Shown here piece by piece: positions 5,843 to 21,804 of a DNA stretch of 21,804 nucleotides. The position numbers were made by a program, and so were the translations under genes. Each line of letters starts with the position of its first letter. Position 1 is the stretch's first letter. The notes under the pieces are model-generated. The model saw only the letters and a list, made by a program, of their open reading frames with translations. It ran no database searches and was not told the origin of the DNA. The stretch is from a virus, in the IMG/VR virus record IMGVR_UViG_3300029448_000203, positions 1 to 21,804 of that record; one strand, 5' to 3'.

Positions 5843-5846
5843 ATTA
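5840..5846 (-). promoter_or_regulatory. TAATATG stop-start junction
   Basis: The stop of the 900-residue cargo gene (TAA, 5846-5844) is one base from the ATG of the giant gene (5842-5840). The leader before this ATG is A/C-rich with no GGAGG-like sequence, so translation of the giant gene probably depends on ribosomes finishing the previous gene or on an A-rich unstructured leader. The coupling is inferred. Confidence 0.45.
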
Positions 5847-8546
5847 TTGGTTTTGTTGTAATCTAATTACGTCCGCTAAATCCATAGGTTTTAACGTTGT
5901 ATTAATTATACTCCTGACATATTCATCAGAAAATTGTCTTTTAGCTGCTTCTTTAGTGATTGCGCCTGATGGGTGAGGAATAATTCCCTTATCTGTTTCC
6001 ATCATTACCAACACTTTATTGCTAGATGTTCCTAGATCGTCAGTAAAAGGAATAAATCCATATCTTTGACCAGATCTATCAGTGCTAGCCCATAATATAT
6101 CAGGAGACCCATTTTTTAATGGAATCTTAACTTTTCCCGTGAGCTCAGTCCAAGTACTTCCATAATCTTCTGGCTTAGCTAATTTATTATTTAATTCAAA
6201 AATAAAATTATCGTTGTGTTTATTTAAAGAAGAAACCATATTCGCTATTTCTAACTTTCTATTTTGAGCAGATGCTGAAGAACTTTCGTTTAATAAAGCA
6301 TACTCATTAAGTAAAAAATCTTGAGCTTCATCTATATTACTGTCATCAATCGCTTTAATGTCTCTGTATTCTTTCCTCCCGTCTTTAGAGTAACCTATCT
6401 TCTCAACTACAACTTTACCATTAGTGTATCTAAAAGTATGCTGCACGTTTTGAGCATTCTTCCAATCGACGTGCTTACGTTTAGTTTTTCCTACTTTCTT
6501 ACCGTCTACGTTGGTCACTAACGACTTACTTTCGCCGCTTAAAATTTTCCCTGACGACCAAAGTTTACTAGCTAATTGATTTACTTGCGCATTAGTTTTA
6601 CCTCCTTGGGTGCTTCCGAAAATATTTCTAGACTTAAAAGTTTCTGGCAATTGTTGATAAGGATTTATATTGATGTCTTTGCTTTTTTTTAACTTTTTCA
6701 GTATCGCTTTTTCACGATTTTTAATTACTGATTTCTTTATTGTCTCAACTTGCGATCTATTTCTTTCACTTGCTTCTTTTTCATTTATAGGTTTTACTTT
6801 ACCTATATCAAGAGATTTAGTTGGGTCAAGTATATATTCAACTAGCTGTTGATCTGTCATATCAATATCATAATCTTTAAATTCCTCTTTAATCATATCC
6901 ATCATATCTTCGTTAGATACAACATTTTCTACTGCAGTAGCCCATTGATACTCTTTTAACTGCGATTGTTTATCTTTGGACTCATTTAGTTGCCCTAATG
7001 TATTTCTAAATGATTCAGTTTGCACAGAGCTAGAATTATATAGCCTATATAATTGACCTGATTTATCTGCGTCAATGCCTTTTTCTTGCGTCTTCTTCAA
7101 AAAATCTTCTTGCTTTAAGTGCGAGTATCTTTGTAAATATAATATATCTTCTTGTTCGACGCCATTGACAGCATTAGCTATATTTTTGTTTTTAAGAACT
7201 TCAGCAAAGTAGACTTGTTCTAAAGACCCAATTTCATCTGACAAAGTTTTATCTAAGTGTTCTCCGTAGCCACCTTCTCTAAACTGTAAATCTGGTGCAG
7301 GAGTAAAGATAAGATCAGATTCATCTTTCTCAATTTGCTGCATCATTATTTCTAGTTCTTGCCTCTTTAAACTATTTTTAATGTTGTCAGCTTTTGCTTT
7401 ATTGTATATTAAATCTAAATCTTTCTTTTCATCGTAAAAAGTTTTAACTGCAGAATCAACGTAACCATTAATTACTTGTTCAGTAGCTATTTTTCTTACT
7501 AAATCTTTATCGTTTAAACTTTTACTTTTATTAGAGTTAAGATCAGATTTGTTTTTTCTAATATCTTTTTTAAACTCGTTTAACGCTGCCTCAGTCTTAG
7601 CCCCATATATTCCATCAATATCTCCTACTGAATATCCTGATTGGGCAAGTATTTGCTGTAAGTTTTGAACGTCTTGTGAGTCACCTTTTGCAAGTTTACT
7701 CATAGCGTTAATTTGTTGGTCTAATTGTTTAATCTGCGAGTCAAATAACTGTGAAGTATATTGTTTTGCTATATCATCATTTAATAATCTTTCTTGACCC
7801 CAGATTTCTACCCCTAACTGTTGTTTATATAGTTCGTTTCCTAATAACGATTCAGCAGCGTTTCTTACCTTGTCTCTTGATATTCCTTTAAGAGTATGCT
7901 TCTCAAACCATGTAGAAGCTCCCTTATCGCCAAGTAATTCTACTACCTGATCATCGGACAAATTATCTAATCTATCAAACAGCTCTTCTTCAATATTTAG
8001 GTAAGGAGTTATAAACGCTTCAGCATTATTGATTGTTCCTTTTTTAGATTTAGTTTCGTAGTCATAAAAATTATCAATAGCCTTAGATCCATAAGCAGAA
8101 TAGTAATCAGACATTGCTTTCATTCGGTTAAGGTCAGCTCCCGGAGTATCTTTATACGTTTCATTAACGCTCTTATAAAATGCTTGTTCTTTATCATAAA
8201 GCTCTTTAAAAGTATTAAATTCACTGTGTGGATTCTGCTTTTCTTTTTTAAGCATTGATATATAATCTTTAGTAGCTTTGTCTCCCTGAGCTATACCTTT
8301 TTTCTTGTATATATCGTAGATTTCTTCGTACTTTTTATCGAGATTTTCTTTAAACTCTATAGCTTTCTTAGCATCAATAGATCTATAAGTAGGATTTAAT
8401 AAACCTTTTTCTGTTTGCGCTGTATTAAGATCTTTTTCTTTCTGCGTAATTTGAGCAGCTTGAGCCTCTAAATTTGGTTTATATATCTCGGGTGTATAAC
8501 CTTGTATGTTTGCGTTAAACATTACAGGCCTATCAAATCTGTTCAT
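5844..8546 (-). CDS. Virion cargo protein with peptidoglycan-binding-like motif
   Basis: This 900-residue protein is mostly helical and highly charged, with Lys/Glu/Gln-rich stretches and no signal peptide or clear membrane segment. Its place between the 453-residue cargo protein and the giant protein suggests an internal virion protein ejected with the DNA. Residues about 289-329 resemble a PG_binding_1 helical repeat: LQQILAQSGYSVGDIDGIYG is followed by KTEAALNEFKKD, matching the family pattern of LQ, Gly-Tyr, D-G-x-x-G, T-x-x-A and a final x-F. That domain normally guides cell-wall hydrolases to peptidoglycan. No catalytic hydrolase motif is evident elsewhere, so it may anchor or guide the ejected protein in the periplasm. 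The C-terminal third (roughly 640-890) looks more globular and beta-containing and I do not recognise it. The gene directly abuts the upstream one (TAAATG). The cargo role is inferred from position; the binding motif is seen. Confidence 0.85.
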   Translation of the reverse strand: MNRFDRPVMFNANIQGYTPEIYKPNLEAQAAQITQKEKDLNTAQTEKGLLNPTYRSIDAKKAIEFKENLDKKYEEIYDIYKKKGIAQGDKATKDYISMLKKEKQNPHSEFNTFKELYDKEQAFYKSVNETYKDTPGADLNRMKAMSDYYSAYGSKAIDNFYDYETKSKKGTINNAEAFITPYLNIEEELFDRLDNLSDDQVVELLGDKGASTWFEKHTLKGISRDKVRNAAESLLGNELYKQQLGVEIWGQERLLNDDIAKQYTSQLFDSQIKQLDQQINAMSKLAKGDSQDVQNLQQILAQSGYSVGDIDGIYGAKTEAALNEFKKDIRKNKSDLNSNKSKSLNDKDLVRKIATEQVINGYVDSAVKTFYDEKKDLDLIYNKAKADNIKNSLKRQELEIMMQQIEKDESDLIFTPAPDLQFREGGYGEHLDKTLSDEIGSLEQVYFAEVLKNKNIANAVNGVEQEDILYLQRYSHLKQEDFLKKTQEKGIDADKSGQLYRLYNSSSVQTESFRNTLGQLNESKDKQSQLKEYQWATAVENVVSNEDMMDMIKEEFKDYDIDMTDQQLVEYILDPTKSLDIGKVKPINEKEASERNRSQVETIKKSVIKNREKAILKKLKKSKDININPYQQLPETFKSRNIFGSTQGGKTNAQVNQLASKLWSSGKILSGESKSLVTNVDGKKVGKTKRKHVDWKNAQNVQHTFRYTNGKVVVEKIGYSKDGRKEYRDIKAIDDSNIDEAQDFLLNEYALLNESSSASAQNRKLEIANMVSSLNKHNDNFIFELNNKLAKPEDYGSTWTELTGKVKIPLKNGSPDILWASTDRSGQRYGFIPFTDDLGTSSNKVLVMMETDKGIIPHPSGAITKEAAKRQFSDEYVRSIINTTLKPMDLADVIRLQQNQ

Positions 8547-15985: not shown

Positions 15986-18892
15986 TTAAAAACTGATTAC
16001 TAATACTTGCGATAAATTTGTTACAGCGTAAGCATTGCCGTCAGATAAATTTGCTGACGCTTCTGTATAAATATTGTATAAGCCGTCAATGTTGAATGTT
16101 TTACTGACAACTTCGTTTACACCGTTTAATCCAGAACTGCTTCCGTTATTGTAACCTCCAGTAATTGGATCCCCATTAACAAAATCTGTAGTATCATAAA
16201 TACCAGAATTAGGGGAAGTTTCCATTCTAACTCTACAGTAATTGTATGAGATGGTATTGTTTACTAACTGAGTAGCTGTAAATGCGAAAGGATGCTGCAA
16301 ACCATTGCCGGGGCCTCCAACATAAGATCTACCTGTAGCAATTCTACAATCAAAGTTAAATGTATTGTTTCCAGTTACAGTTATATCTGACAAGTTTGGA
16401 ATAAAGGCTACTGCACCGTTTGCGACGTAATATTCCATAAAACCACCTATGGCTGGTAAACTAGAAAGATTGCTTGTCCAATTCAATTGAACAGGAGTGG
16501 AAGAAGTACCAACATTCATTTTTTGCGCCATGTTATACGGGTTATCTAAACTTCCCTCGGTATTAAATATGTAAGATGAGTCGCTAGGGTAATGGTCAGC
16601 TATAATATTGTAAACTGCTCTGTAACCTTCGTTTGCTGTGCCTTGATTGAATAATTGAGGAACAGTGCCTGATAAACCTCCGCTATAACTAGTTTGAAAA
16701 AACGTCGTATCATCTGCGCTAAAAGATGCGTAATCCGATGGCGCTGTTTGTCTGAATGCAATAGATTCACATGGGTCTCCTGTACCATCACTGTTTGAAT
16801 CGTAAACAAAATTGTTAGTAACATTCCAAGTAGAAGTGTTTAGCGATACAAAAGAGGATAAATTTTGATTCCCTACACCTTTTATAAAATAAGCAAAATG
16901 ACCCGGAGAATAACTACCTACTTGCGGACCACCGTAGTTTCCAGAAGCGCAAGAAGTATTTTGATTCTCAAATGTCCCTGCGGTCAATCTAAAGGACAAA
17001 GGTGTTTTGTATATACCGACAATATTAGAAGTACTTGAATCCGATATACATACGTCTTGTGCGTTATACTCATAAGTAAAGCTTACATTCTCACCTAAGT
17101 TTACTCCTGCCGTACTAGTGTTTACCGCCCAAGTTAATTTATCAAATTCTATTTCTGTAGTAGCTAAGACATTGTTGTCTTCAAAATAATTTTCGTAATT
17201 TCCTGTCCAATTACTACTTGTTCCAGAAGGAGCTTTCATTGTGTCTGTACCTATAATAAAATTAGCAAACGCTAACTCTACACCAGCTTGTGATCTAATT
17301 GTAATCTTTAAGTTATCTCCATTTGAAACTGTATCGGTCGAAGTTATCACTGTATTCCAGTCAATATAACCTGTAGTTGAATTATAAGACTGAGCTGTAG
17401 TAGTCAGTGTCGAGGAGTGTGTAGGATTCACCGTAATATTATAAACTAAAGTGCCTGATAAAACAGCACTTCTTCCAGTTGAATCTACAACTGACTCTAC
17501 CGTTATTACTTGATCTACTGTAGGATTTTCAGTTACAGTTCCGTTCGACATCATCACAGGCTCTTTTATAGTTGTACCGTCAATGTTGTATCTTACCGTA
17601 TATGGAGCCGTCCCGTCGCTAAATTCAAAGTTCATATCGAAGTCTCCTTCTGGGCAAACTGACGTAGAAGAACCTGTTACATTTGCTTTGAATTTTAAAC
17701 TCAAAGAGATATAAATATAACGTTTGCCTTGACAAGCTCCTAAACTATGCTCAAAAACGTACAATCCTTCGGGAAGTAAATCAGTGGTTAAAACTCCGTT
17801 TACTAACTGACTACTAGTTACGTTGTTAGGACTTACTGTAGACAAAATAATATTTCCGTCAGTGCTTGTGGCGTATGTAAACAAGTTAATTGTGTCACCT
17901 ATTCCGTGATCTGCGGAAACATAAGTATTGTTAGGAACAGGGTTATCGCATGAAGTCAATTCATCACATAAACCTTGACCGAATGTATAGTGTTTGACAT
18001 ATAATTTATCGTCACACTGAGATTCTTGTATGTCAACTTCTCTTTTAAAGCTATAATTACTTGTTGGAAAAACTGTTGTGTATCTTTCTATGTTCAGACT
18101 AACGATATTAGTATGATCTGCCATGTTAGTCCAATCATTTTCATACGATGTCTGGTCCGTGTCAAAAGTTGATTTGAGAGTGCTGCACCAATTGTATGGA
18201 TGCGTACTGTCGCTTGTGTCATAAGTCAAAACTAATTGCGTAGTTGTCAGCGTGAAGTCTAACTTATACTTATAATTGTAAACTACATAAGTCCCGCTAG
18301 CATAGGCGAAAGTAAATTTTAAAATATCGAGGGGGTCTGCATTGTCAAAATAGGACTGCAGAGTAGGACTAGATGAAGGTAAGTCTACAAAGATAGTATT
18401 ATTATTACTGCTTGCTTGGTCTCCGATTGTTAAATTAAAAGGAGTAAGTGTTGTATAAGAACAATCATCTCCTATGGTAATCGGCGAGGAGTAGCTCGAT
18501 TCAGTTACAAATCCATCAGAACTGTAAGTGACGTCATCTGATAAAACTGTCCCTCGTAAAACTCCACTTTTAGTGCTCGTGAGCGTGCTTCCTGCGCAAG
18601 TAACATTAAGTGTAGGGTTATTGTAGCAAGGGTCTATCTCTTCAAATGTATCACAAGCAATACTTTCCTCTTGAACTAGATACTCTTTTACTAAGCAATA
18701 CATATCATTATTTAGACTACACACATCCGAGTTAGCGACAATTAAAGAAGCTAAGTACGACGACTTAGCTTCGGTTTTTTCTTGGCACTCGTTTGGGCAA
18801 TTTACTCCATACAATAGCGATAATATGTAATTATCTACACTATTATGCAGCCTGCAGTTAATCGCACTGTTTGCATTTATTGTCTGAGTCAT
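15986..18892 (-). CDS. Large beta-rich virion protein with Ig-like domain (probable appendage)
   Basis: This 968-residue protein is rich in Ser, Thr, Asn, Gly and Tyr and predicted to be nearly all beta strand. The N-terminal 100 residues differ: they are helical and Cys-rich (Cys 13, 32, 36, 58, 66, 80, 89, 99), like a docking domain. Residues about 402-490 look like the Ig/PKD-like modules of Bacteroidota surface adhesins (SVCPEGDFDMNFEFSDG, then APYTVRYNIDG, then a strand before DSTGRSAVLSG). At 698-707 the sequence DSNSDGTGDP resembles a calcium-binding loop of thrombospondin type 3 kind. No signal peptide is seen, as expected for a virion protein. It is made just before the tail-barrel proteins and just after the short Cys-rich protein, whose 3' end it overlaps by 35 nt. 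A tail appendage or host-surface-binding role is inferred; the family is not recognised with certainty. Confidence 0.85.
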   Translation of the reverse strand: MTQTINANSAINCRLHNSVDNYILSLLYGVNCPNECQEKTEAKSSYLASLIVANSDVCSLNNDMYCLVKEYLVQEESIACDTFEEIDPCYNNPTLNVTCAGSTLTSTKSGVLRGTVLSDDVTYSSDGFVTESSYSSPITIGDDCSYTTLTPFNLTIGDQASSNNNTIFVDLPSSSPTLQSYFDNADPLDILKFTFAYASGTYVVYNYKYKLDFTLTTTQLVLTYDTSDSTHPYNWCSTLKSTFDTDQTSYENDWTNMADHTNIVSLNIERYTTVFPTSNYSFKREVDIQESQCDDKLYVKHYTFGQGLCDELTSCDNPVPNNTYVSADHGIGDTINLFTYATSTDGNIILSTVSPNNVTSSQLVNGVLTTDLLPEGLYVFEHSLGACQGKRYIYISLSLKFKANVTGSSTSVCPEGDFDMNFEFSDGTAPYTVRYNIDGTTIKEPVMMSNGTVTENPTVDQVITVESVVDSTGRSAVLSGTLVYNITVNPTHSSTLTTTAQSYNSTTGYIDWNTVITSTDTVSNGDNLKITIRSQAGVELAFANFIIGTDTMKAPSGTSSNWTGNYENYFEDNNVLATTEIEFDKLTWAVNTSTAGVNLGENVSFTYEYNAQDVCISDSSTSNIVGIYKTPLSFRLTAGTFENQNTSCASGNYGGPQVGSYSPGHFAYFIKGVGNQNLSSFVSLNTSTWNVTNNFVYDSNSDGTGDPCESIAFRQTAPSDYASFSADDTTFFQTSYSGGLSGTVPQLFNQGTANEGYRAVYNIIADHYPSDSSYIFNTEGSLDNPYNMAQKMNVGTSSTPVQLNWTSNLSSLPAIGGFMEYYVANGAVAFIPNLSDITVTGNNTFNFDCRIATGRSYVGGPGNGLQHPFAFTATQLVNNTISYNYCRVRMETSPNSGIYDTTDFVNGDPITGGYNNGSSSGLNGVNEVVSKTFNIDGLYNIYTEASANLSDGNAYAVTNLSQVLVISF

Positions 18893-19340
18893 TATTCTCT
18901 AGATTTTTATTCAGTATTTTTAAAGCTTCGCAAAGTTTACCGCAATCACACTCGCTGCATAAAGCGCTATTTGATAGGTATTCATATAGCAATACATTGT
19001 CAATATCTAAGCTCTCTAATGTTTTACATTTAAGTTCATTATCCTTGTCGTAAAAATTACATTGTTTATCTATTTTAGTGACACCTTCGCTACTGTAAGA
19101 TAATCGAACACTGTAAACTGACGTAGTTAAACTTTCTTTTTTTATGTATAAGGTATTTGTTTGATAATAGTTTCCACTTGTGTCGCTCGCATCCCAACTA
19201 ATTGTTTGGTCAGATTCGTCTGCGCAATTAATTGATAACTTTACGGTTATAGACAAAGTGTTATCGCTGTCGTAATCAGACAACACTGTTGAGTCTGTTA
19301 CTTCAATATACTCTGTTGTTGTATTATATGTTATTGTCAT
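18858..19340 (-). CDS. Short virion-associated protein with Cys-rich C-terminus
   Basis: This 160-residue protein has two parts. Residues 1-95 are beta-rich and look like a small sandwich (TYNTTTEYIEVTDSTVL, then an alternating strand region ending in YSVRLSYSSEG). Residues 105-160 are helical and Cys-rich: C105, then CSECDCGKLC at 128-137, then CKQC at 156-159. The Cys pattern recalls the helical Cys-rich N-terminus of the next protein, with which the gene overlaps by 35 nt, so the two may pair through these regions by disulfides or a metal. I do not know a named family. The gene follows the PAS protein gene after a 28-nt gap, the longest in the window. The ATG leader ends in GAATTATAAT with no Shine-Dalgarno sequence. 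A structural role is inferred from context only. Confidence 0.75.
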   Translation of the reverse strand: MTITYNTTTEYIEVTDSTVLSDYDSDNTLSITVKLSINCADESDQTISWDASDTSGNYYQTNTLYIKKESLTTSVYSVRLSYSSEGVTKIDKQCNFYDKDNELKCKTLESLDIDNVLLYEYLSNSALCSECDCGKLCEALKILNKNLENNDSDNKCKQCD

Positions 19341-19368: not shown

Positions 19369-19992
19369 CTAATATATTTTTAAAGTGGAGTTAGACTTAG
19401 GTATCGCTATTCCAGCTATACCTATTGTAATTCCTTCTACCACTCGTTTGTATTTAATAAAGTGCCATTTTTTGAGGAGGTTTTTGTAGTCTCCTCCTAC
19501 TTCATTTCCTTGCCAAATACTGTCTTCCAAAGCTGCGTCATCATTTTTTTGAAAAACTTCACTTAACTCTTTGCCCCATATTTTTTCATCTTTATAACCA
19601 ATATAATCAGATGACGTAAATCCTTGAGGAAGTAAAAAGTGTTTTTCATATGACTTGTTTAAAGAAATCATAATGCCATTAAGATCTTTGATCCACATTG
19701 GAAAAGGGCTATTTAAGTGTGCTGTTTCAGTGACAGTTATTTGATATTGAAGTATTCTTATGGATTTAACTAACTCTATATTTTTAGAATTGACTTCGTT
19801 AAGATCATCAGTGAGTTCTTCGACCTTAACAGTCAGTCCTTCTACTTGACTTTTTAAAAAGTCCACTATGAATTTAGTGTCATTTACTTGATTTCTTCGT
19901 TTCCATTTAATGAAGCGAGGGATTGTTACAAGAATAAAAGTTGATATAGAAGCTATTATAGCTTCTATATGGGGTTTAATAAATTCTTCCAT
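19369..19992 (-). CDS. Membrane-anchored coiled-coil protein with PAS-like domain
   Basis: This 207-residue protein has three recognisable parts. Residues about 9-27 form one hydrophobic helix (IEAIIASISTFILVTIPRF) followed by a basic stop-transfer stretch (KWKRRN), so the bulk is probably cytoplasmic. Residues about 40-85 form a coiled coil (QVEGLTVKVEELTDDLNEV). Residues about 92-198 look like a PAS fold: PFPMWIKDLNGIMISLNKSY is the typical first two strands (W-I-K-D-L-N-G, then a strand and N-K), then IGYKDEKIWG, and a final beta pair (KWHFIKYKRVV, ITIGIAGIAIP). PAS domains bind small ligands or mediate protein contacts. There is no kinase, cyclase or DNA-binding output domain. The gene lies 1 nt after the fibre gene and ends in TAG, the only TAG stop here. 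It could be a holin- or spanin-like lysis component or an envelope sensor; the PAS reading is fair, the function unknown. Confidence 0.8.
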   Translation of the reverse strand: MEEFIKPHIEAIIASISTFILVTIPRFIKWKRRNQVNDTKFIVDFLKSQVEGLTVKVEELTDDLNEVNSKNIELVKSIRILQYQITVTETAHLNSPFPMWIKDLNGIMISLNKSYEKHFLLPQGFTSSDYIGYKDEKIWGKELSEVFQKNDDAALEDSIWQGNEVGGDYKNLLKKWHFIKYKRVVEGITIGIAGIAIPKSNSTLKIY

Positions 19993-19993
19993 T

Positions 19994-21070
19994 TTACATA
20001 AGTGTGTCAGATATTACTCTCCAGTTAGTCCCGTCGAAGTAACATAGTTTGTTTAGTGTCGTGTTGTAAGTCATTTCTCCTCCTGAGTAACTTGAAGTAT
20101 TTATACTGTTAATCTCCGAAGTAGTCAACCCAGAGATATTAACAAAACTCGTTATGTTTATGCTAGAGTCACAGCTCCATTCGCCTGCATTATCTTCATG
20201 CAATATTTTTCTCCAACCAGAGTTTCCCGACCCAGATACTTTGAAGTAAAAGACTCCAGATTGGTTGTCAATAGCCAGACTTCCTACATTTCCAGAAACT
20301 GTACTATTTGGATTACTTGAAACTGTGCTTATTGTACTGCCTTCTCCGTCATCAAACTCTATAAATCTGTTTACGTTGCTCACTGTGTTTGTTGACAACA
20401 CAATCAGAGATGAATCCGAGTCAGTTTCTCCTATCCGAGAAAAATTAAAAAAATTGCCGGCCTGTCTTAATGTTGACGACTGACTCAGGCTGAGAGTGAC
20501 TGTTCGCGAGAAAATCCTAGTGGTTGTGTCATTGAATACTGTAATTACTGAATCGCCTATAGTATCTGAGATGTCAGGTGACATATAATAATAGCCATGT
20601 ACTTCTGAGTAACTTAACTCCCTAATTCCTACATTTGTAACTTTTGTTATATGTAAATTAGACCCTGACCTATCAACATTAAAATACTTCCCACTTTCAG
20701 GTTTAACAGAAAAATAACTAAGTTCTTCTAAGGATAAAGAATAAACATCCGCACCTCTTATGATTCTATCTGATGTTAAAGTGGAAGAAGTATTATAAAC
20801 GTTAGCTTGCGATAAAGTAGTCGACAAAGCCTCTAAAATGCTTTCTATAGATGTTCCTGCCGCATATTCTGTGTTGTTTACAGTCACTGCTTCAGAAATT
20901 AATGCTTTCCAATAATTTTGCTTAAATCCTTCCTGCAGCGTAGAATATAGATTGATAATATCAGGGTATTTCCCAACGCTTTTATTTCTCTTATAATTCG
21001 AAGTGTAATTTGTATCGCTAAGTAACCCGAAAGGAATATTCAATGGTTTAATATCGTTATAATTCTTCAT
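19994..21070 (-). CDS. Fibre-type structural protein
   Basis: This 358-residue protein has a more polar, partly helical N-terminal region (about 1-95, with YSTLQEGFKQNYWKALISEA) suited to attachment to the virion. A long Ser/Thr/Asn-rich beta region follows (100-260). The C-terminus carries two related units of the kind common in phage fibres: GSLAIDNQSGVFYFKV with GWRKI at about 263-290, and GGEMTYNTTLNKLCYFDGTN with WRVI at 330-353. In such units a Gly-x-x-x-Tyr strand is followed by a loop and a Gly-Thr-x-Trp strand. The protein lies 22 nt after another fibre-type protein and probably works with it. Whether it is a head or tail fibre cannot be decided; no receptor-binding specificity is visible. 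The start ATG has an A/T-rich leader. Confidence 0.82.
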   Translation of the reverse strand: MKNYNDIKPLNIPFGLLSDTNYTSNYKRNKSVGKYPDIINLYSTLQEGFKQNYWKALISEAVTVNNTEYAAGTSIESILEALSTTLSQANVYNTSSTLTSDRIIRGADVYSLSLEELSYFSVKPESGKYFNVDRSGSNLHITKVTNVGIRELSYSEVHGYYYMSPDISDTIGDSVITVFNDTTTRIFSRTVTLSLSQSSTLRQAGNFFNFSRIGETDSDSSLIVLSTNTVSNVNRFIEFDDGEGSTISTVSSNPNSTVSGNVGSLAIDNQSGVFYFKVSGSGNSGWRKILHEDNAGEWSCDSSINITSFVNISGLTTSEINSINTSSYSGGEMTYNTTLNKLCYFDGTNWRVISDTLM

Positions 21071-21092: not shown

Positions 21093-21804
21093 TTAGATAT
21101 TAGGTTTTGATTGGACTAATGTAACTGATGCAGTCCATCTAATCGTTTCACTAGCTGCCCCTGTGCACCGGATATAAAAATTTCTGTTAGAACCTGAAGT
21201 AAGTGCTCTTACGCTAGCTGACCATGTAGGCGAACCGTAAGTACTAACGGAAGTCAATGCTACATCTCCACTACTACCATTTATTCTAGGGGTTGTGCCA
21301 CTTCCTTCGTTTGTGTAAAGAAATGTTCCTTCCCAGCCTGCAAACTTGGAAACCGTTGAATCTACAGCAGATAATTTAACTGTAATGACTGTTGCTGTGT
21401 TGTCTTCAGTTTCAATATTAGTTTGGCCGCCTGAAGTTTTCATAGGTGTTACAGCTGCATCAGTTGTTTCAAGAACCATTATAGCTTCTCTTACTGTATG
21501 TAACCCATAAACCGTGTCAGTAGTCAACCTGCCTCCAGTAACGACTTCGTAATCAGAAACTGATTTGACTCCTCTACCCATTGCAAAAACATAATCATTA
21601 TCAACAACAATATCTTTACCTAAAGCCATTACGCCATTTCCTTGAACATCTACATTTTGACCGTAAGCCAAACTTGCTACACCATCAACAATGACACCAG
21701 ATCCTCCTGCGCAAGTATATGCGGTGCTAGAATCTCTTGTACCGATCCATACTCCTTTCCCTCCGATAGAAGTATTGTAAGAACCTCCTATAGTAGAAAA
21801 CGAA
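21093..21804 (-). CDS. Fibre protein with YadA-like repeats, 5' end beyond window
   Basis: The frame stays open to the right edge (44 further codons upstream of the TTG at 21671), so the gene starts outside and TTG 21671 is not the true start. At least 236 residues are visible. The N-terminal visible part has a 14-residue period seen in LAYGQNV, MALGKDI and FAMGRGV, with Gly-rich earlier units (STIGGSYNTSIGG). This is the left-handed beta-roll pattern of YadA-type trimeric adhesin heads, which also occurs in trimeric phage fibres. After a short linker (TTDTVYGLHTVREAIMVLE) comes a Thr/Ser-rich, probably beta-sandwich C-terminal domain ending in TIRWTASVTLVQSKPNI, with an Ile-x-W-x-A pattern typical of fibre tips. 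The trimeric state and host-binding role are inferred. Confidence 0.82.
   Translation of the reverse strand, partial: SFSTIGGSYNTSIGGKGVWIGTRDSSTAYTCAGGSGVIVDGVASLAYGQNVDVQGNGVMALGKDIVVDNDYVFAMGRGVKSVSDYEVVTGGRLTTDTVYGLHTVREAIMVLETTDAAVTPMKTSGGQTNIETEDNTATVITVKLSAVDSTVSKFAGWEGTFLYTNEGSGTTPRINGSSGDVALTSVSTYGSPTWSASVRALTSGSNRNFYIRCTGAASETIRWTASVTLVQSKPNI

Follow-up and report, generated by a model that had tools for sequence, protein, structure and literature searches.

What does a protein that joins a membrane anchor to a PAS domain do among the structural genes of a phage? The window considered here (the whole stretch of DNA that was analysed, 21,804 nt) is part of a 32.5-kb virus record and carries, on its minus strand, a gene for such a protein, referred to below as the PAS gene. 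The first-pass annotation of this locus had described a single membrane helix, a coiled coil, and a PAS-like domain encoded between fibre and tail genes, and had proposed that the product times lysis, acts as a holin with a regulatory domain, or docks a virion component. In this paper, we describe the architecture of the protein, its relatives, and the genes that surround them, and weigh what its function may be. The features of the locus are collected in Table 1.

Table 1. The PAS gene, the parts of its product, and its adjacent genes, in window coordinates.
Feature	Position	Strand	Basis
PAS gene, 207 aa: N-terminal membrane helix, coiled coil, PAS	19369..19992	-	ORF, translation, family alignment
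Membrane helix, about residues 9-28	19909..19968	-	Hydropathy, charge count; pattern shared by nearly all relatives
Coiled-coil/signalling-helix region, residues 38-92	19717..19881	-	One long helix in model
Motif WIKDLNGIMISLNKSY, residues 100-115	19648..19695	-	First PAS strands and start of next helix
PAS domain, residues 94-199	19396..19713	-	pLDDT, PDB fold matches, Pfam PAS E=4e-4
Fibre-like gene, upstream of PAS gene	19994..21070	-	ORF list
160-aa gene, downstream of PAS gene	18858..19340	-	ORF list

Architecture of the Protein

The lone N-terminal membrane helix of the first-pass annotation is confirmed by hydropathy, the charge count, and the structural model. Residues 9-27 form a single hydrophobic helix with a Kyte-Doolittle value of 1.66, followed by KWKRR; one lysine precedes the helix, and five K/R residues occur in the next 15 positions. 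In nearly all relatives the helix is likewise N-terminal, preceded by few K/R residues and usually followed by 2-5 of them, as judged by hydropathy and charge counts. Because the K/R cluster follows the helix, the positive-inside rule predicts one anchor with the N-terminus outside and the PAS domain in the cytoplasm, which supplies the membrane topology that the annotation had left to be predicted. The coiled coil also holds: residues 38-92 are a single long helix in the model, and this region gives coiled-coil matches in a profile search of the PDB. The annotation was equally right about the absence of an output domain, as the chain stops 8 residues past the PAS domain. Kinases, transcription factors, and cyclases of this kind carry an output domain on the same chain, and the 207-aa protein has none.

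The fold was predicted with AlphaFold2, using a 14-sequence alignment. In the model, a helix extends to residue 34 and is followed by the long helix; from residue 99 onwards, the order is strand, strand, helices, strand, short helix, strand, and strand, with pLDDT near 94 at residues 101-160 and 78-89 beyond. This is the layout of a canonical PAS fold, namely two strands, helices, and three strands forming an antiparallel sheet. When the model was compared with the PDB by Foldseek, each of the best 10 matches was a PAS domain, the leading one at E=1.8e-5 with probability 1.00, and the top matches include 3lyx, 3mxq, NifL 2gj3, BvgS, Aer, and VqmA. Neither a non-PAS fold nor a known virion family, the two outcomes that would have contradicted the first reading, was obtained. 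In profile searches, the window copy matches Pfam PAS and NCBIfam sensory_box, both with E=4e-4, at scores just below the cut-offs (20.9 bits for a cut-off of 22.6 and 20.6 for one of 22.9, respectively), which are score thresholds and not biological criteria, and the relatives in the MA9V phages clear the cut-off of PAS_4. A PDB search with the single window sequence returned chance matches only. We regard the predicted PAS identity as confirmed, with weak support from sequence alone and strong support from structure.

Relatives and Sequence Conservation

Searches with tblastn matched g078 of the Cellulophaga phage phi14:2 and two Chryseobacterium jumbo phages, while a profile built from four sequences matched 14 loci in IMG/VR, phi14:2 itself being among them. 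Through these two approaches, 16 phage records besides the window were found to share the three-part architecture. A scan of viral contigs with the single window protein sequence gave no match, and no cultured relatives were found with P0007 as the probe; probe P0008 matched Flavobacterium and crAss phages, in whose annotated regions no gene is named as PAS. The Bacteroides host implied by the first-pass annotation is not shown, the cultured relatives infecting Cellulophaga and Chryseobacterium. Its description of a PAS domain at this place as unexpected was overstated: the domain itself is already known, as the phi14:2 copy bears the name PAS fold protein in its deposited record.

The motif WIKDLNGIMISLNKSY, quoted in the first-pass annotation, is indeed present, and nowhere else is the family so strongly conserved. 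Residues P96, P98, W100, K102, D103, N112, and Y115 are invariant in all 14 representative sequences, and so are G132, D135, D151, K180, G191, and G194. Pairwise identity ranges from 26 to 88% in the PAS half versus 9 to 84% in the helix/coiled-coil half, which suggests that the PAS domain is the important part.

More diverged PAS-like proteins, phi18:3 gp090 and phi19:1 gp108, were taken from a viral fold library, whose rows were paired with these proteins by phage and length. Profile comparison with the family gave moderate results (probabilities 94 and 86, respectively). The group phrog_10199, listed as of unknown function, holds phi18:3 gp090 and is weakly matched by phi14:2 and MA9V-1.

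Two sets of matches were not retained. Those in Brevundimonas jumbo phages share the PAS domain and lack the helix and the lysis context, and they were excluded from the family; they encode a soluble, distantly similar PAS-only protein of 166 aa (L020:7953-8453 and L021:7845-8345), and their genes lie downstream of a tRNA cluster. The sole match in genome_contigs, from Reinekea, has the sequence of an ordinary PAS signalling protein of the long, membrane-bound type, in which other domains are also present.

Gene Neighbourhood in the Window

The contig shows a crAss-like gene order: terminase, portal, capsid, fibres, PAS gene, ring protein 2, muzzle-like protein, and cargo. The terminase, portal, capsid, and fibres were named by order and by eye, ring protein 2 by PF25702 (E=4e-13), the muzzle-like protein by phrog_15100, and the cargo protein by CARG1 at a score just below the cut-off. 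The position first assigned to the PAS gene is thus correct, with a fibre-like gene upstream and the ring protein 2 and muzzle cluster downstream. The stop codon of the fibre-like gene lies 1 nt from the PAS start, an arrangement that is identical in the relative L006, so that the two genes are probably co-translated. The downstream 160-aa gene is also found in L006, separated there from the PAS gene by a membrane-protein gene.

Lytic enzymes were sought in the window contig (a fragment, 32.5 kb) with DUF5675, GH19, and Amidase_2, and in the closest relative, G001 (a fragment, 52.9 kb), with the same families and GH108; no match was obtained in either, the GH19 negatives being weak since that search also missed its controls.

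Two other observations concern this contig. In the cargo region, a 900-aa protein (5844-8546, minus strand) contains an embedded PG_binding_1 domain at residues 290-327 (E=6e-9), a stretch that the G001 relative appears to keep when read by eye, and this domain may help the phage to pass peptidoglycan during entry. Near position 21800, a fibre ORF (L005:2989-3804, minus strand) includes four unknown residues, XXXX, which mark an assembly gap.

Lysis Genes Around the Relatives

In phi14:2, the PAS gene is followed by a GH19 endolysin gene, with a 4-nt overlap, and then by the gene of a 192-aa TM protein, which is the canonical holin-endolysin-spanin order. The cassette of MA9V-1 and MA9V-2 consists of GH108, a PG_binding_3 lipoprotein, PAS, an Rz-like TM protein, and a lipoprotein with a C-terminal TM, the last two being spanin-like. 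A GH108/PG_binding_3 endolysin follows PAS in L019, a lipoprotein with a C-terminal TM helix in L007, and a DUF5675 gene in both L013 and L014; in L014, a protein related to the phi14:2 TM protein (phrog_25644) comes next. A homologous small membrane protein adjoins the PAS gene in L006 and L015. No lysis gene adjoins it in L008, L010, L011, L009, L012, L016, or the window, and in L009 and L012 it comes after the capsid gene. The position beside endolysin or spanin genes that marks a holin is therefore found in relatives and not in the window contig. In five of 11 lineages, the PAS gene lies no more than two genes away from a lytic enzyme; a rough binomial estimate, which uses guessed gene counts and rates and takes the lineages as independent, puts the chance of this at about 3e-4 to 6e-3 if rates of 6-12% are assumed and at 0.05 if 20% is assumed.

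The small membrane protein shared by L006 (10567-10947) and L015 (9121-9540) has the motifs ETISSxLGxN and DFID, with 37% identity between the two copies (E=2e-13). In two loci (L013:7089-7505 and L014:649-1257; cf. L035:6707-7168), the place of the endolysin behind the PAS gene is occupied by DUF5675, which may be a phage lytic enzyme family. The L013 DUF5675 protein (PF18925) and crAss001 gp30 match the same PHROG, 1501; gp30 is annotated as an L,D-carboxypeptidase/transpeptidase and lies two genes after the annotated holin gp28. In hhalign, the N-terminal half of the family matched the crAss001-type 'lysis regulatory protein/holin' with a probability of 90 and, in one comparison, E=1.7e-6 over a low-complexity helix; this likeness consists of a helix and a coiled coil, which align easily, and the holin label of crAss001 is itself an annotation.

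In phi18:3, the neighbours of the PAS-like gene include a 5-TM protein and an endolysin. Homologous multi-TM proteins, phi18:3 gp091 and phi19:1 gp111 (L033:39637-40143 and L034:9110-9649; 34% identity), occur near the endolysins of these two phages and are unannotated holin candidates.

A Possible Role in Lysis and Its Alternatives

We consider it somewhat probable that the PAS gene belongs to a lysis module and encodes a holin-like protein or a membrane-bound regulator of a holin, because of its recurring position, its overlapping starts, and the single anchored helix of its product. For the window copy, such a role would follow from homology to the relatives. In the proposed mechanism, the helix would insert in the inner membrane with the C-terminus inside, and the coiled coil would allow oligomerisation. 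The PAS domain may bind a small cytoplasmic ligand or cofactor, or it may just dimerise, and its state would set the trigger time of the membrane assembly, after which the endolysin and spanins would act. Among the functions first suggested, lysis timing or a regulated holin fits best; the endolysin, DUF5675, and spanin-like genes near the relatives speak for it, and the window contig, with no recognised endolysin, speaks against it.

The holin-like and regulator versions can be weighed against each other in the relatives. Strictly, a holin would make the lethal lesion alone, with PAS serving merely for oligomerisation. In the cassettes of phi14:2 and MA9V, the PAS protein is the sole holin-like candidate seen beside the endolysin, and in phi14:2 its gene also overlaps the endolysin gene by 4 nt. 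We nevertheless find the strict version doubtful, given the better conservation of the PAS half and the additional multi-TM protein near the endolysin in phi18:3 and phi19:1; in these two phages a regulator is favoured, since the extra protein looks more holin-like.

Other explanations place the protein outside lysis. A truncated sensor kinase would likewise consist of a single anchor, a coiled coil, and a PAS domain lacking an output, and relatives weakly match the linker and PAS of ArcB (E=6e-4 and 3e-3). In one such explanation, the anchored PAS domain would pair with host sensors, interfering with the PAS sensor kinases of the host, or would keep out a second phage at the inner membrane (superinfection exclusion). 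The association with lysis genes in some lineages and not in all is compatible with such a host-membrane factor, which we judge improbable: the gene lies inside late structural/lysis operons and not in early or accessory regions, it overlaps lysis or membrane genes by 4 nt, and the PADLOC defence library gave no match. A component of the virion or its assembly, docking a fibre or tail part or anchoring assembling particles to the membrane, would suit a gene that lies 1 nt downstream of a fibre gene within the structural block, in the window as in L006, or after the capsid gene in L009 and L012. This explanation, the virion docking of the first-pass annotation, fits less well and appears quite improbable, as the deposited annotation of phi14:2 has no MS/MS virion note for g078, unlike g080, g081, g083, and g085, the nearest folds are sensor PAS domains, and the phages that carry the relatives differ considerably in their structural genes.

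The lysis of crAss-like phages is poorly understood, and a review of these phages mentions only spanins, lysins, and a provisional spanin/holin (PMC10136315). Our literature search for PAS together with holin, phage lysis, or crAss, for which most subscription papers were out of reach, returned nothing relevant. With a membrane PAS protein recurring in the lysis cassettes of the cultured phages phi14:2 and MA9V-1, a lysis time set by a sensor is testable. A wider proposal, which we put forward tentatively as the less likely outcome, is that crAss-like and unrelated Bacteroidota phages use single-helix lysis proteins whose trigger is governed by a PAS sensor in the cytoplasm, with lysis time following a host metabolite or redox state. 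If true, this would be a new regulatory input to holin-type proteins, of which the literature searched gave no earlier description.

Comparison with Known Systems

Among the closest described counterparts is the 'PAS fold protein' of phi14:2, g078 (YP_008242302), which has the same length and the same order of helix, coiled coil, and PAS as the window protein, with about 28-33% identity, and occupies the same slot between the fibre genes and the ring/tail cluster. In phi14:2, an endolysin gene and a small TM gene lie directly downstream, which is not so in the window. The PAS protein of the Chryseobacterium phages MA9V-1 and MA9V-2 shares the three-part architecture and about 26-32% identity with the window copy; unlike in the window, it is encoded in a jumbo phage and embedded in a GH108/spanin-like cassette.

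The crAss001 'lysis regulatory protein/holin', gp28, and its relatives have the N-terminal helix, the K/R cluster, and the coiled coil of the window protein, and a DUF5675-type enzyme and a spanin-like protein are encoded nearby. Unlike the window protein, gp28 has no PAS domain, and the half that the two have in common is a candidate homology. The T4-type holin T also combines a single helix with a globular C-terminal domain. In holin T this domain is periplasmic, whereas the PAS domain of the window protein is predicted to be cytoplasmic from the K/R residues after the helix. In the fold library, 'Holin, Proteus phage phiP4-3' was a weak match (E=0.02, probability 0.92).

By sequence profile, the closest PAS domain is that of VqmA (E=1e-4), the DPO receptor that is also encoded by phage, and phage VqmA (7dwm) is among the Foldseek matches of the 207-aa protein. 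VqmA carries an output domain that binds DNA and lacks a membrane helix, and the window protein is its opposite in both respects.
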